Shown here piece by piece: positions 12,164-16,060 of a stretch of 64,000 bases of DNA. This DNA comes from Limimaricola cinnabarinus (GTDB lineage Bacteria > Pseudomonadota > Alphaproteobacteria > Rhodobacterales > Rhodobacteraceae). Numbering within the stretch: the stretch's first letter is position 1; every line of letters begins with the position of its first letter. The stretch covers positions 1 to 64,000 of the forward strand of contig NZ_KZ304952.1 of the NCBI RefSeq assembly GCF_002723615.1. Direction: 5' to 3'. A program made the position numbers and the translations under genes. A model generated the notes under the pieces. It was not told the origin of the DNA and made no database searches. It saw only the letters and a program-made list of their open reading frames with translations.

Positions 12164-13330
12164 TCAGGGATCGACCAGCCCGAGCTGCGCCTCGTCGAAG
12201 CCCAGCTCGACGCTGAGCCCCCCGCCCTCCTCGCGGTTCTCGGTGCGAATGAAACCGGCATGCTTCTGGACCATGGTGCGGATCATGCGCCAGCCGAGCG
12301 ATTCCGAGCGCTCGGGCCGCTCCATCCCCGGCGCGAGGCCGCAGCCATCATCGGCCACGGTCAGCGTCAGCATCCCGTCGGCGCGCCTCAGGCGCAGCTC
12401 CAGCCGCCCGCGCGCGCGCCCGGCAAAGGCGTGCTTGCAGGCATTGGTCAGAAGCTCCCCCGCCGCGAGAGCGAGATCGGTCACCGCGCTGCCGGTGAGG
12501 TGCAGCGCATCCCCCTCGACCACGATCTCGATCTCCTGGTCCGAGGTGGAGAAGGCCTGTCGCGTCTGCTCGGCCACGTCGCGCAGCAAGGGCAGCAACG
12601 CCGCGCTGTCGGCGGCGGCGGCGCGCTGCAGCTGGTCGTGGATCGCGGTGATCGCCTTCACCCGCAATTCGAGATCGCGCAGGACCTTCTTCGTCTCGTC
12701 GCTCGCGGCCGCCGAGCGCGACAGCCGCATCAGGCCGGTCACCAGCGCGAGGTTGTTCTTGGTGCGGTGATGCACCTCGGCCATCAGCAGGTCGCGCTCC
12801 TCGATGGCATCGAGCAGGTCGCGGTTCTGCTGCGCCAGCATCGCCGCCGGATCGGCCCGGCGCAGCGCCGCCAGCGCCTCGCCGATGGCGGCGGCGGTCT
12901 GCGCGGTCCCGGCGGCGGGAAGGCCGGTGTCGAAGCCGGCCCGGATCCGCGTGCCCTCGGCGCCGCTCTCGATATCGAGCCTGTCTGCGATGCGCTGCAC
13001 GCCGCGCAGGCCAAGCCCCAGCCCCGGCCTGCGCGCGGCACCCGGCAGCGGCGCCGCGCCGCCGAGCCGCGCCTCGAGATCGGGGATGCCCGGCCCCTGG
13101 TCGATCGCCTCGACCACCAGTTCGAGCGCGCCCGCCCGCGGCTCCAGCGAAAGCGTCATCCGCCCGCCGCCGCCATGCTGGACGATGTTGCGCCCCAGCT
13201 CCAGAAGCGCCGTGACGATGCGGGTTTCGGCGAATTTGGCAAAGCCGCAGTGGCGCGCCACCTCCTGGCCGACCATCCGCAGCCGCACGATATCCTCGTC
13301 GGCCTCGATCTTCAGCGTGGTCAGCCTCAT
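12164..13330 (-). CDS. RsbT-like ATPase fused to HisKA_2 histidine kinase (stressosome output candidate)
   Basis: A 388-residue protein with two ATP-binding modules. Residues 1-135 are a GHKL ATPase of the RsbT/anti-sigma type (N box ELGRNIVQHGGGG, then DQGPGIPD and GLGLGLRGVQRIAD). A short helical linker leads to a HisKA_2-type dimerisation domain, EVHHRTKNNLALV, with His188 as the likely phospho-acceptor. A second HATPase follows (ELLTNACKHAF, DDGCGLAPG, SLGWRMI). The start at 13330 overlaps the upstream gene by 4 bases. HisKA_2/HWE kinases commonly feed PhyR-type response regulators in Alphaproteobacteria, so I infer that this protein passes stressosome state to a phosphorelay. No partner regulator is encoded nearby. 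Confidence 0.9.
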   Translation of the reverse strand: MRLTTLKIEADEDIVRLRMVGQEVARHCGFAKFAETRIVTALLELGRNIVQHGGGGRMTLSLEPRAGALELVVEAIDQGPGIPDLEARLGGAAPLPGAARRPGLGLGLRGVQRIADRLDIESGAEGTRIRAGFDTGLPAAGTAQTAAAIGEALAALRRADPAAMLAQQNRDLLDAIEERDLLMAEVHHRTKNNLALVTGLMRLSRSAAASDETKKVLRDLELRVKAITAIHDQLQRAAAADSAALLPLLRDVAEQTRQAFSTSDQEIEIVVEGDALHLTGSAVTDLALAAGELLTNACKHAFAGRARGRLELRLRRADGMLTLTVADDGCGLAPGMERPERSESLGWRMIRTMVQKHAGFIRTENREEGGGLSVELGFDEAQLGLVDP

Positions 13331-14325
13331 GCCGCCTCCTCGCGCGCGAGCCGGGCCACGATCACGCAGCAATCGTCGCGGCCCTTGCTGCGGTCGCGCA
13401 TGAACTGCGCCGCGATCATCGCGCAGCTGTGACCGGCGGTGGACGGCAGCTCGGCATGGCTGCGCAGCGTCGAGAGCCCGTCGCTGTGCAGGATCAGCAC
13501 GTCGCCGGGCCGTATCACCGCCTCCTCGACGGGGGGCGTGCGCACCGCGCCGCCAAGCCGGCCCTCGCGGCTGATCAGCCGCTTCACCTGGCCATTGGGC
13601 TGGACCAGCAGCGCCGCGATATTGCCGATCCCGGCCAGCCGCAACCGCCCGTCCGCCGCCTCGATCTGCGCCAGCGCCGCCACCGAGCCGCGGCTGCCCG
13701 CAAGCCGGGCCGAAAGCTCGGACAGGGTGCGCGCGGGGTCCTCGCCGCGCAGCGCCTCGAGCCCCTCGATCGCCTCCGCCGCCGCCGCCTCGGCGCGCGC
13801 GCCATGCCCCAGCCCGTCGACCGCGAAAAGATCGACCCGCCCCGAGACGTCGCGCACCAGGAGCCCGTCGCCGCAGGCGCGGTCGCCGGGGTAGTTCATC
13901 AGATAGGCGCCGACCTCGACCCCGGCGAGCACCGGGGCCGCGCCGAAGCCGCAGACCGTCACCGTGCCCTGCCCCGGGGTCGAGCGGATCTCGAAGCTGT
14001 CGGCCAGCCGCCGCATCGCGCCCAGGCCCCCGCCCGCGCTCGACCCGGTCGAGAAACCGTCCGAAAGCGCGAGATCGACATCGGGGATGCCCGGCCCGGC
14101 ATCGATCGCGGCGACCGAGACATGCGGCCCCTTGCCGGGCTGGATCTGCAGCAGAAGCTGGCCTGCGCGGGCGTGGCGCAGCAGATTGGTGGCCATCTCG
14201 GTGACCACGATGGCCAGCGCCTCGGCGCGCGTGTCGGGCAGCGCCGCCGTCTGGGCGAGGTTGCGCGCCAGGCGGCGCGCCTCGGCCACGGCGCTGGGGT
14301 CGGAGATATCGACGACATGTCTCAT
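13327..14325 (-). CDS. RsbT-like ATPase fused to RsbX/SpoIIE-type phosphatase
   Basis: A 332-residue fusion. Residues 1-130 are an RsbT-like GHKL kinase (EMATNLLRHARAG as N box, DAGPGIPDVD, GGGLGAMRRLAD). Residues 135-332 are a PP2C/SpoIIE phosphatase with metal-binding Asp170 in FAVDGLGHG, the later motif LILHSDGLSTL and the final GRDDCCVIVA. In Bacillus, RsbX dephosphorylates RsbR and RsbS to reset the stressosome, and RsbT is a separate kinase. Here one chain carries both activities. It overlaps the genes on both sides by 4 bases, so the stoichiometry is probably coupled. Confidence 0.92.
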   Translation of the reverse strand: MRHVVDISDPSAVAEARRLARNLAQTAALPDTRAEALAIVVTEMATNLLRHARAGQLLLQIQPGKGPHVSVAAIDAGPGIPDVDLALSDGFSTGSSAGGGLGAMRRLADSFEIRSTPGQGTVTVCGFGAAPVLAGVEVGAYLMNYPGDRACGDGLLVRDVSGRVDLFAVDGLGHGARAEAAAAEAIEGLEALRGEDPARTLSELSARLAGSRGSVAALAQIEAADGRLRLAGIGNIAALLVQPNGQVKRLISREGRLGGAVRTPPVEEAVIRPGDVLILHSDGLSTLRSHAELPSTAGHSCAMIAAQFMRDRSKGRDDCCVIVARLAREEAA

Positions 14326-14729
14326 GGCCTGGCCTCCATCTCGATCGTGGTTCCGACGCCGGGCCGGCTTTCGATGCGGAACGCCTCGACCAGCCGCCGC
14401 GCGCCGCCCAGCCCCTTGCCCATGCTGCGCGCGGTCGAGAAGCCGTCGGTCATCGCGCGGTCGATATCGGCGATGCCGGGGCCCTCGTCGCGGCAGCGGA
14501 TCATGATCCGCAAGGGACGCTCAAGCCGATGGATCTCGATCACCCCGCCGCCGCCATGGTCGAGCGCGTTGCGGGCGATCTCGCTCACCGCGGTGACGAA
14601 GCGGGTCTTGCGCAACGCCCGTGCGCCCATCGCATCCATCGCCTTCGACACGGCGATCCGCGCCGCGGCGATGTCGCGCTCCTGCCGCAGCTCGACGCTG
14701 GCCGCCGGCCGAGCCGGCGGGGCGCTCAC
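14322..14729 (-). CDS. rsbT: RsbT-type serine/threonine kinase of the stressosome
   Basis: A 135-residue GHKL-fold kinase. The N box has Glu50 and Asn54 (SEIARNALDHGGGG), followed by the Mg/ATP motif DEGPGIADID (Asp81) and the lid motif GKGLGGARRL. In the characterised Bacillus system, RsbT is held by the RsbR-RsbS complex, phosphorylates both on stress, and is then freed to act on its target. Length and order (rsbR-rsbS-rsbT) fit that system. It overlaps rsbS by 4 bases and the next gene by 4 bases. Confidence 0.95.
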   Translation of the reverse strand: MSAPPARPAASVELRQERDIAAARIAVSKAMDAMGARALRKTRFVTAVSEIARNALDHGGGGVIEIHRLERPLRIMIRCRDEGPGIADIDRAMTDGFSTARSMGKGLGGARRLVEAFRIESRPGVGTTIEMEARP

Positions 14730-15088
14730 GCCAGCCCCTTGGCCTTCAGGCTCCGCAAGGCATGGCTGAGCGACAGCGCCGTCTTGGAGCCGGGCAGGTC
14801 CATGCCGAGCTCGACCAATGTCATCGCCACCGCCGGGCGCATGCCGACGATGTAGGTCTCGGCCGCCAGCAGCCGCGAGATCGAGGAGAGCTGCGCCAGG
14901 ATCCGCCCGACGAAGGTATCGACGATCTCCAGCGCCGCGATGTCGATCACCACGCCGCGCGCGGCCTCGTTCACGATCCGCTCGGAGAGATCCTCCTGCA
15001 GGTTGATGATGTCGGTGTCGGTGATGTTGTCGCGGATCGCGACCAGCAGCACCTTGTCGACCGTGTAGATCGAGGCCGCCTCAGACAC
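14726..15088 (-). CDS. rsbS: RsbS-type STAS scaffold protein of the stressosome
   Basis: A 120-residue single STAS domain. The body (LQEDLSERIVNEAARGVVIDI and GMRPAVAMTLVELGMDL) follows RsbS closely. The phospho-acceptor of Bacillus RsbS is Ser59 in an Ile-Asp-Ser-Phe context; here the aligned residue is Thr58 in IVDTFVGR, so phosphorylation would be on Thr. RsbS forms the core of the stressosome with RsbR and sequesters RsbT. It overlaps rsbR by 8 bases and rsbT by 4. Confidence 0.95.
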   Translation of the reverse strand: MSEAASIYTVDKVLLVAIRDNITDTDIINLQEDLSERIVNEAARGVVIDIAALEIVDTFVGRILAQLSSISRLLAAETYIVGMRPAVAMTLVELGMDLPGSKTALSLSHALRSLKAKGLA

Positions 15089-15962
15089 GGGTGTCCTCGA
15101 CCCGGCCGATGCGGAAGCCGACGCGGCGGAACGCCTCGTCGAGCGCGGCGCGGATGGTCGGGCGGGTCGTCACCTCGCCCACATCGACGCCGAGCTCGAC
15201 CATGGTCTGGGCGATCTTGGGCGAGATGCCCGAGATGATCGCCTCTGCCCCCATCAGCCGCACCGCGGCGGCGGTGCGCAGCAGGTGCTGGGCGACCTGG
15301 GTGTCGACGACCCGCACGCCGGTGATGTCGACGATCACCACCTCGGCGGAGTGCTCGACGATGGCGTTCAGCAGGTTTTCCATCACCTCCTGCGCGCGCA
15401 TCGAATCGAGCGTGCCGATCAGCGGAATGGTCAGCACCCGCTCCCACAGCTGCACCACCGGGGTCGACAGCTCCATCATCTCGGCGCGCTGGCGCTCTAT
15501 GATCTCGTCGCGCTCGGCGATGAAATACTCGTTGATATGCATCGCGAAGGCATCGACGATCCGCCCGAAATTCGCGGCCTCCTGCAACAGCTGCTCGGGC
15601 GTGCCGGTGAGCCGCTTCTGCAGCATCTCGAACACCGGCTGCTTGAGCGCGAGGACGAAGGCGGTCATCTCCCACGGGGCCACGCCGCGCTCGGTGCGCA
15701 CCAGCGTGATCTCCGACAGCGCCAGCCGCAGATCGGACCAGATCTCCGCCTCGATGTCGACCGGCGCGTCGAGGTCGATCCGGGCCAGAGCCTCGGAAAA
15801 GGCGCGCAGCAGGTCGGCCAGCTGGCGGCGGCTCTCGCGGTCGGAGAAGAGGTCGGGGCGGCGCACGCCCTCGCGCTTCTGGGTCGCGAACCAGGCATCG
15901 AGAACGCTGTCGAAATCCTCCCGCAGGAGGCGGCTTACTTCGGTCGTCGGCGCAACGGTCAT
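15081..15962 (-). CDS. rsbR: RsbR-type stressosome sensor protein
   Basis: A 293-residue protein starting at ATG 15962 (AGGA 7 bases upstream). Residues 1-160 form a helical, globin-like N-terminal sensor domain ending in a long helix. Residues 165-293 are a STAS domain whose two expected RsbT target sites are present: Thr184 in PLIGTLDS and Thr221 in VVDTQVAQHL, matching Thr171 and Thr205 of Bacillus RsbR. It is the first gene of a five-gene, fully overlapping operon. I see no heme-ligand or flavin motif in the sensor part, so the stimulus is unknown. Confidence 0.94.
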   Translation of the reverse strand: MTVAPTTEVSRLLREDFDSVLDAWFATQKREGVRRPDLFSDRESRRQLADLLRAFSEALARIDLDAPVDIEAEIWSDLRLALSEITLVRTERGVAPWEMTAFVLALKQPVFEMLQKRLTGTPEQLLQEAANFGRIVDAFAMHINEYFIAERDEIIERQRAEMMELSTPVVQLWERVLTIPLIGTLDSMRAQEVMENLLNAIVEHSAEVVIVDITGVRVVDTQVAQHLLRTAAAVRLMGAEAIISGISPKIAQTMVELGVDVGEVTTRPTIRAALDEAFRRVGFRIGRVEDTRV

Positions 15963-16060
15963 AATCGGTCCTAGTTGGTCACGGCTGCCCATCGATATGG
16001 GTAGCCGCGCGAGAAGGAAAGCCTTGTCGCGGCATCATTCGGCGCGAACCGGCCTGCCGC

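Follow-up and report, generated by a model that had tools for sequence, protein, structure and literature searches.

A five-gene stressosome unit encoding its own histidine kinase suggests a link to the alphaproteobacterial general stress response

The stressosome is a bacterial stress-sensing complex best known from Gram-positive bacteria, and alphaproteobacteria use a general stress response that is distinct from stressosome systems. In the window analysed here, a stretch of 64,000 nt from Limimaricola cinnabarinus, the minus strand carries a series of genes for RsbR, RsbS, RsbT, an RsbT-RsbX fusion (TX) and an RsbT-like/HisKA_2 histidine kinase (TK; Table 1). The five genes are all adjacent, each is open and complete, and the four successive junctions from RsbR to TK overlap by 8, 4, 4 and 4 bases. 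The Pfam domains in this order are RsbRD_N plus STAS, STAS, HATPase_c, HATPase_c_2 plus SpoIIE, and HATPase_c_2 plus HisKA_2 plus HATPase_c, all above the cut-off for named families. For comparison we used the seven proteins of the annotated sigB operon of Listeria, and E-values against Listeria refer to those seven; the best matches were RsbR for RsbR, RsbS for RsbS, and RsbT for each of the three RsbT-type domains, namely T1 (RsbT), T2 (in TX) and T3 (in TK). Open frames, domains, Listeria matches and overlaps together confirm the five-gene stressosome operon with overlapping junctions that the original prediction had described.

Table 1 Genes and domains of the stressosome cassette in the window.
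Feature	Coordinates	Strand	Description
rsbR	15081..15962	-	RsbRD_N sensor-like domain and STAS; PF14361 E 6.9e-17, PF01740 E 7.2e-15
rsbS	14726..15088	-	Single STAS domain, PF01740 E 1.5e-10; 38.5% to Listeria RsbS
rsbT (T1)	14322..14729	-	Stand-alone switch kinase; 37.7% to Listeria RsbT, E 1e-21 (set of seven)
rsbT-rsbX fusion (TX)	13327..14325	-	T2 (13954-14304) and RsbX-type PP2C (13351-13842); PF13581, PF07228
TK	12164..13330	-	HisKA_2 histidine kinase with a fused RsbT-like domain; 51 intact loci have full-length relatives
T3 domain of TK, residues 1-138	12917..13330	-	RsbT-type; retains catalytic Glu44/Asn48/Asp77 and Arg18 but not the lid motif
HisKA_2 dimerisation/phospho-acceptor domain of TK	12557..12778	-	PF07568 E 2.7e-15; His188 at 12767-12769
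Catalytic ATPase domain of TK	12194..12478	-	PF02518, residues 285-379

RsbR, which shares 41.7% over 127 aa with its Listeria counterpart, is encoded together with the STAS protein RsbS and the RsbT kinase, and itself combines a variable N-terminal domain with a STAS domain. We amended its start, preferring 15962 over the in-frame ATG at 15992 on the basis of the other-genus orthologues only, which it suits better: 8 of 9 of these alignments start no earlier than residue 11, and those within the genus are mixed. Thr231 and Thr263 of RsbR (numbered from the 15992 start) are, by motif, what we take to be the phospho-threonines and were found in 52 and 51 of 52 aligned rows, respectively; the presumed phospho-site of RsbS, Thr58, likewise assigned by motif, is Thr in 50 rows and Ser in 2. 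Judged by residue identity alone, both STAS proteins carry putative phospho-acceptors. T1 keeps the lid motif DGFST, the motif as well as the Glu and Asn being present in 52/52 rows. The phosphatase domain of TX matched RsbX (E 6e-11) far better than RsbU (E 0.24) in the Listeria set of seven, and the metal-binding residues Asp153, 170, 282, 317 and 318 of this RsbX-type PP2C are each kept in all 52 rows.

The cassette is flanked by an HTH protein (RHE_PE00001 match below the cut-off), a DUF1127 gene and a LacI-type regulator. Pfam and NCBIfam scans of the neighbours detected no adjoining sigma, anti-sigma or anti-anti-sigma gene, which bears out the claim that a sigma-B type output is missing next to the operon, and within the operon there is no RsbU, RsbV, RsbW or sigma gene. 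Elsewhere in the genome no stand-alone RsbW-type ATPase was found at E ≤ 0.001, the remaining HATPase_c_2 matches at this threshold residing in frames of at least 353 aa. The cassette therefore resembles the Listeria SigB operon in its relatives of RsbR, RsbS, RsbT and RsbX and differs from it in lacking RsbU, RsbV, RsbW and SigB and in having two extra T domains. A conserved neighbour as the stressosome output was rejected as well, since no neighbour gene was common to all genera in 15 loci plus the window. A gene of 479-551 aa downstream of TK is common to the Sulfitobacter loci and Salipiger pallidus, and both of those that were scanned (L145, L161) encode aldehyde dehydrogenases. ABC transporter ATPases, a common family, are encoded by four upstream frames that have relatives in 13-16 other loci.

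In a GTDB scan we kept 80 loci, comprising 51 with full-length TK and flanking sequence, one truncated at the end of a contig, and 28 kinases without the RsbT-like part that match only the kinase half of TK. All 51 intact loci contain the same five genes in the order R-S-T-TX-TK, and they stem from four orders (Rhodobacterales, Sphingomonadales, Hyphomicrobiales and Rhodospirillales). This comparison across relatives, suggested at the outset, supports the view that the kinase belongs to the unit and is not merely a gene next to it. Close RsbS proteins (at least 60% identity) and TK occur in an identical set of 11 genomes among the 292 of the order sample. The five proteins have concordant distance matrices (Mantel r 0.82-0.97, with none of 500 permutations as high for any pair), a concordance that shared ancestry alone also gives. 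In a class-wide sample with at most five candidates scored per genome, full-length TK was found in 2 of 385 genomes, and 13 further genomes matched the kinase half only. A presumptive wider T fusion in Flavobacteriales (L185) was ruled out, as it proved to be a TPR-HisKA_2 kinase accompanied by a LytTR regulator.

In the tree, the T1, T2 and T3 domains each cluster as one group, moderately supported for T1 and T2, and both the tree and the Listeria comparison assign T3 to the RsbT group and not to the RsbW/SpoIIAB group (RsbT E 1e-21 versus RsbW E 0.13 in the set of seven). The RsbT lid motif, scored as [DE]Gx[ST][ST] in 52 rows, is present in all T1 domains, in 48 T2 domains and in none of the T3 domains. 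The suggested splitting or duplication of the RsbT role hence holds in part: all three domains are RsbT-type, but T3 never shows the lid motif. The ATP lid expected in the N-terminal domain of TK is there as a stretch, and the RsbT motif within this stretch is gone. The residues of the T3 nucleotide site are invariant across the 52 rows, and among retained residues are Arg18 (50/52) as well as Glu44, Arg47 and Asn48 (each 52/52). By alignment and equal spacing, the columns of Arg18 and Glu44 correspond to Arg20/Glu46 of SpoIIAB and Arg23/Glu49 of RsbW, which are described as lying near or at the STAS partner (PMC10345196, PMC7340262). Because the lid motif is missing throughout, we did not file T3 as an RsbT kinase; its sequence fits a docking copy of RsbT better than an active switch kinase, and loss of the motif might also mean a lost STAS contact.

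The kinase core of TK appears intact. Its H-box reads H188-R-x-x-N192, so the original prediction named the correct histidine, and H188 as well as the ATPase residues N296, D327, G329, G331 and G346 are kept in 51/52 rows. This HRxxN motif is carried by the kinases that activate PhyR (PMC5898713). The highest-scoring NCBIfam model for TK was PhyK, with 86 bits far below its cut-off of 750, and Pfam gave no match to RsbU_N, the domain of known stressosome kinase modules. In an AlphaFold2 model the T3 part reached block-mean pLDDT values of 81-95 except for residues 91-110 (below 50 at residues 99-105), and the domain arrangement is not reliable, given a pTM of 0.54 and the low confidence of the linker and the H-box (pLDDT 54-59, residues 161-190). 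With the whole model as query, Foldseek returned HisKA_2 and other kinases, the best being 4r39 (EL346); a single-sequence fold (P0004) with a mean pLDDT of 49.8 was set aside.

The genome search proposed initially for PhyR and NepR located both in Limimaricola. In two species of Skermanella, a PhyR gene comprising the full set of three Pfam domains precedes the rsbR frame, with a gap of 16 bases. Of the three full-length PhyRs in each genome, this operon-heading one matches Limimaricola PhyR best. The arrangement is, as far as our search could find, the first genomic connection between a stressosome and PhyR, and the two loci may perhaps reflect one event. In Limimaricola, PhyR probably needs kinases other than that of its own locus, as judged from sequence, because among six HisKA_2 kinases (the pattern found the H-box in 6 of 8 tried) the G1-like motif was missing only in the one at the phyR locus. 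NepR was present in 17/17 TK genomes tested; its occurrence in 11/11 genomes with TK versus 186/281 without (p 0.012 by genome, 0.099 by genus) was rejected as proof of PhyR wiring, being weak at the genus level. A scan upstream of rsbR with an EcfG-type promoter consensus was also set aside: loose matches occurred in 8 of 51 loci (3.4 expected), and the strict search (0/51, with 0.2 expected by chance) had no power.

A histidine kinase with its own copy of the RsbT domain, encoded within a stressosome unit, therefore suggests that TK feeds the alphaproteobacterial general stress response. We give a probability of about one half to a self-contained five-gene stressosome with a histidine kinase output, in which T3 docks on STAS domains and phosphate goes to PhyR. 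By family, RsbR and RsbS would form the STAS shell, T1 would be the switch kinase, and RsbX, tethered via T2, would reset the switch. T3 has lost its resemblance to a Ser/Thr kinase yet keeps the face that grips the STAS partner in the RsbT fold, and may park TK on unphosphorylated RsbS/RsbR. Upon stress, T1 would phosphorylate RsbS (Thr58) and RsbR, TK would be released or re-arranged, and its helical linker would let the HisKA_2 core autophosphorylate on His188. The phosphate would then pass to PhyR, either in one step or via a single-domain regulator, and EcfG would be freed from NepR. We infer the docking of T3, the direction of switching, phosphotransfer from TK and, outside Skermanella, PhyR as the target. 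The earlier proposal of a stressosome controlling a two-component phosphorelay, perhaps PhyR-type, is thereby supported in part, by the kinase within the unit, NepR and PhyR in the genome and the PhyR heading the Skermanella operon. More tentatively, the RsbT fold might serve as a docking tag with which T1, the RsbX phosphatase and TK compete for the same STAS sites, making the complex a switchboard to PhyR-NepR-EcfG. If so, two stress systems usually ascribed to different phyla would be one pathway in many Alphaproteobacteria.

A less probable alternative keeps the docking and assigns TK to another receiver elsewhere, for example a single-domain regulator, the Skermanella arrangement being lineage-specific. 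The genome has 34 receiver matches, several of them single-domain receivers beside other HisKA_2 kinases, and in Salipiger mangrovisoli (L157) the next frame upstream of rsbR, 267 bases away on the same strand, is a 125-aa single-domain receiver. In 48/51 loci no receiver was found adjoining the cassette, with a narrow model that drew on 19 of 30 receiver loci and may miss divergent receivers, and with less than 1 kb available on one side in three of the 48. Against this, the receiver gene nearest to the cassette, close enough for an operon, is that of PhyR (two loci), and HWE/HisKA_2 kinases have repeatedly been tied to PhyR (PMC5898713, PMC12148442). That T3 instead pairs with RsbT or T2, so that stress-freed RsbT activates TK as RsbT does RsbU in Bacillus, we consider improbable: RsbW dimerises via helix 1/strand 1 (PMC7340262), in the classic system RsbT, once set free, activates a partner (PMC12143880) and lid loss suits a domain that has given up phosphorylating STAS proteins, but the STAS-contact Arg is among the best-kept T3 columns outside the nucleotide site and TK has no RsbU_N match. 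Mere co-transcription of TK, with T3 a relic and the output elsewhere, would fit the universal loss of the lid motif and is very unlikely given the invariant nucleotide site, the fusion retained in every intact locus and the fact that we saw no other signalling output gene common to many loci.

A stressosome feeding a two-component kinase is already published for other architectures, Heinz et al. 2022 having proposed it for other Proteobacteria including Ruegeria (PMC9237108); the RsbT-like/HisKA_2 fusion and the link to PhyR appear to be new. As described there, rsbRSTX modules followed by a histidine kinase/REC (Dongia, Ruegeria, Vibrio) are likewise minimal stressosomes without sigma-B, with a globin-coupled RsbR, a single-domain RsbX and an output with RsbU_N or no recognised link. 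In the present cassette, one RsbT-type domain is joined to RsbX and another to the kinase, which is HisKA_2, and a neighbouring receiver is mostly not found. A locus of the same order (L125) has a single-domain X, an RsbU_N-HisKA kinase and a REC. The output has also moved to a new effector in the RsbU_N-histidine kinase and RsbU_N-GGDEF proteins of Gammaproteobacteria and Moorella, which are reported to carry the receptor for RsbT (PMC12143880), whereas TK carries a copy of RsbT itself. TK resembles the Paks of Sphingomonas melonis, HWE/HisKA_2 kinases with HRxxN mostly encoded away from phyR and described as cytoplasmic, and it has no Pfam domain suggesting a membrane sensor; its input domain is RsbT-like, a feature given for no Pak as far as that account goes (PMC5898713).

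The targets of stressosome control in Gram-negative bacteria are described as little known (PMC9237108, PMC4976288), with a link to iron metabolism in Vibrio vulnificus (PMC9237108). The RsbT copy in TK offers a directly testable physical link from the stressosome to its output, and the phyR heading the Skermanella operon names a candidate target. Full-length TK was absent from the 4 phage records. The T3 domain alone was found in 102 plasmid records, 58 of them from Phaeobacter; among the 40 of 102 listed, the non-Phaeobacter records carry annotations as anti-sigma factors or ATP-binding proteins, or lack a listed gene. In Phaeobacter inhibens DSM 17395 the cassette is located on a 262-kb plasmid (PGA1_RS18475 to RS18495) and is therefore testable in a named, cultured strain. 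Its genes are annotated there merely as STAS or ATP-binding proteins.

The five genes overlap at their junctions by 8, 4, 4 and 4 bases and encode, in this order, RsbR (with RsbRD_N and STAS domains), RsbS, a stand-alone RsbT (T1), a fusion of an RsbT-type domain (T2) to RsbX, here called TX, and a fusion of a further RsbT-type domain (T3) to a HisKA_2 histidine kinase, here called TK. The host genome is Limimaricola-like (Rhodobacterales), and its nearest relatives found were Limimaricola species. We compared the gene products with seven proteins from the annotated sigB operon of one Listeria record, and the E-values given here are valid for that set of seven. RsbR and RsbS found their Listeria counterparts, RsbT was the best match for T1 (1e-21), T2 (8e-16) and T3 (1e-21, versus 0.13 for RsbW). 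In TX, the phosphatase part resembled RsbX more closely than RsbU. The coordinates, overlaps and Listeria matches all agree with the original prediction of a stressosome operon of five genes with overlapping junctions. The gene upstream of rsbR gave an RHE_PE00001 family match below the cut-off and a weak match to HTH. Each of the six other wide Limimaricola loci contains a relative, which adjoins rsbR in the five for which the frame is listed.

Coordinates of the operon and of other features discussed in the text
Feature	Location	Strand
Five-gene operon	window:15962 to 12164	minus
Gene upstream of rsbR	window:16061-17254	
Kinase at the phyR-nepR locus (L093)	G000 (genome of the window) contig C1:438897-440795	
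Putative ECF sigma factor frame	L093:4143-4790	
Receiver-like frame (L106)	G000 contig C3:181293-181652	
Single-domain receiver, Salipiger mangrovisoli	L157:4666-5043	same as rsbR
Second stressosome type	L125:4727-6279	
Plasmid-borne cassette, Phaeobacter inhibens DSM 17395 (L227)	NC_018291.1:79498-83316	
Histidine kinase, Notoacmeibacter	L207:3256-5073; L176:3184-4965	divergent from rsbR
Aldehyde dehydrogenase, Sulfitobacter and Salipiger pallidus	L145:9280-10719; L161:9158-10813	same as TK

TK was present in all eight genomes of the genus, with one copy split across two contigs, and in 11 of 292 genomes of the order Rhodobacterales, from 6 of 112 genera. A close RsbS (60% identity or more) occurred in exactly the same 11 genomes, and a distant one (31-35%) in three more. 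The same gene order was seen in the window and in fifteen wider loci. A scan of GTDB contigs returned at least 590 stretches with at least 552 relatives, and among the best 80 of 552 the full cassette was found, in order, in 51, and was interrupted by a contig end in one (L131), whereas in 28 (L179-L206) the match was confined to the kinase half of TK; more cassettes, or TK outside one, may exist among the weaker relatives. With the cassette complete and ordered in 51 of the best 80 relatives, the kinase gene is part of the operon rather than a chance neighbour, as had been proposed. Across these 51 loci and the window, the distance matrices of the five proteins correlate pairwise with r of 0.82 to 0.97, which fits joint inheritance of the cassette, though common host ancestry contributes. 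The cassette is a real, widespread and strictly conserved stressosome variant. Judged by record titles, with the order checked for four genera, its hosts belong to the Rhodobacterales, Sphingomonadales, Hyphomicrobiales and Rhodospirillales, and Alloyangia pacifica KcN7-14 carries it twice (L154, L156). PLSDB contains 60 plasmid records, 58 of them from Phaeobacter, that match at least 80% of the TK length. One copy of the cassette lies on the 262-kb plasmid of P. inhibens DSM 17395, where its genes are annotated just as STAS or ATP-binding proteins. The copies of Sagittula (L160, Rhodobacterales) and Novosphingobium (L162, Sphingomonadales) cluster together in T1, T2 and T3, a shared grouping that suggests cassette transfer between orders.

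In trees of the T domains from 20 loci, computed with and without the Listeria proteins, T1, T2 and T3 each formed one group. With the Listeria proteins, RsbW/SpoIIAB fell outside, T1, T3 and canonical RsbT came together (92/82), and support was 59/84 for T1 and 72/88 for T2; without them, the values were 95/86 for T1, T3 and RsbT, 81/85 for T1 and 88/91 for T2, and the lone long SpoIIAB branch landed beside T2. The predicted presence of three RsbT-class domains therefore stands as far as grouping and matches go, but T3 departs in its lid: the motif [DE]Gx[ST][ST] was found for T1 in all 52 rows, which comprise the window and the 51 loci, for T2 in 48 and for T3 in none. Absence of the ATP lid from the N-terminal domain of TK had been named beforehand as an argument against its wiring to the stressosome; the lid stretch is present, but its motif is missing throughout. 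T1, T2 and T3 all retain the catalytic Glu and the Asn of the Mg site. An Arg 26 residues before the Glu (52/52 in T1 and T2, 50/52 in T3) corresponds to SpoIIAB Arg20 by alignment and to RsbW Arg23 by equal spacing, and T1 and T3, unlike T2, have in all rows a further Arg three positions beyond the Glu. SpoIIAB Arg20 lies near the partner site, with Glu46 as the base (PMC10345196), and RsbW Arg23 and Glu49 hydrogen-bond to RsbV (PMC7340262). From this conservation and these contact residues, we infer that in T3 the surface that faces STAS is preserved and the kinase lid abandoned, which makes a good case for docking of TK via T3. In the kinase half, all four boxes (H, N, G1, G2) are intact. 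In an AlphaFold2 model (49 sequences, mean pLDDT 83.9, pTM 0.54), T3 is folded and followed by a low-confidence lid (residues 99-105 under 50) and by helices leading into the HisKA_2 core, with a pLDDT of just 54-59 for residues 161-190 (linker and H-box).

Proteobacterial rsbRSTX modules have been proposed to feed phosphorelays, with RsbU_N domains on some output proteins, by Heinz et al. 2022 (PMC9237108), and PMC12143880 makes the same point for kinases. The present cassette differs in that T is fused to the phosphatase and to the kinase, the kinase is of another family (HisKA_2) and an own receiver is usually absent. A second stressosome type occurs in the same order (L125, L126, L127, L226). 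One locus, L125, has an RsbU_N-HisKA kinase, together with distant RsbR and RsbS, a single-domain RsbX and a REC protein. Its R-S-T-X order recurs in L126 and L127, where a REC gene lies about as far away, and the RsbT of L226 bears a full lid motif. In the portions seen of the open-licence literature on stressosomes, Alphaproteobacteria, Roseobacter and Phaeobacter inhibens, neither an RsbT-histidine kinase fusion of this kind nor a link between stressosome and PhyR was found described.

The genome of the window contains a single NepR, next to which lies a PhyR carrying the full set of three Pfam domains; a frame judged by eye to be an ECF sigma factor lies between NepR and a kinase gene. The H-box pattern was found in six of the 8 HisKA_2 kinases tried, and this neighbouring kinase, alone among the six, has no G1-like motif. 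It thereby resembles Sphingomonas PhyT/PhyP, which, according to PMC5898713, have a degenerated ATPase domain and act downstream of other kinases, the Paks, and it looks more like a phosphotransferase than like a kinase. Outside the operon, this genome yielded no stand-alone RsbW-type ATPase. A 119-aa receiver-like frame without the N-terminal part of the domain may be a single-domain regulator that is degenerate or has a wrongly placed start.

In Skermanella stibiiresistens and S. aerolata, the rsbR frame is preceded by a gene that encodes PhyR_sigma2, PhyR_sigma-like and receiver domains and stops 16 bases short of the frame's first start codon. The product of this gene, with 45% identity to the Limimaricola PhyR, is the best of three full-length PhyRs per genome. 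No nepR-like frame was apparent by eye beside it at either locus, so phyR seems, from gene arrangement, to be part of the stressosome operon. TK might instead phosphorylate another receiver, such as a single-domain regulator: in Salipiger mangrovisoli the next frame upstream of rsbR, 267 bases away, encodes a 125-aa single-domain receiver, a possible TK partner in that lineage, which suits a relay to PhyR as well as this rival target. Beside the cassette, no receiver was detected in the other 48 of the 51 loci, among which L138, L139 and L152 have less than 1 kb on one side. NepR was present in 17/17 TK genomes versus 20/35 others in one genome set, and in 11/11 versus 186/281 in the order sample (p 0.012 by genome, 0.099 by genus), a co-occurrence compatible with PhyR as the target but no proof of it. 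The case for PhyR as the TK output is suggestive, not conclusive. Two Notoacmeibacter loci carry a 5TMR-PAS-HisKA histidine kinase gene divergent from rsbR, followed by a gene for a 127-aa receiver. In Sulfitobacter and Salipiger pallidus, the gene after TK encodes an aldehyde dehydrogenase, at a distance of about 155 and about 45 bases, respectively.
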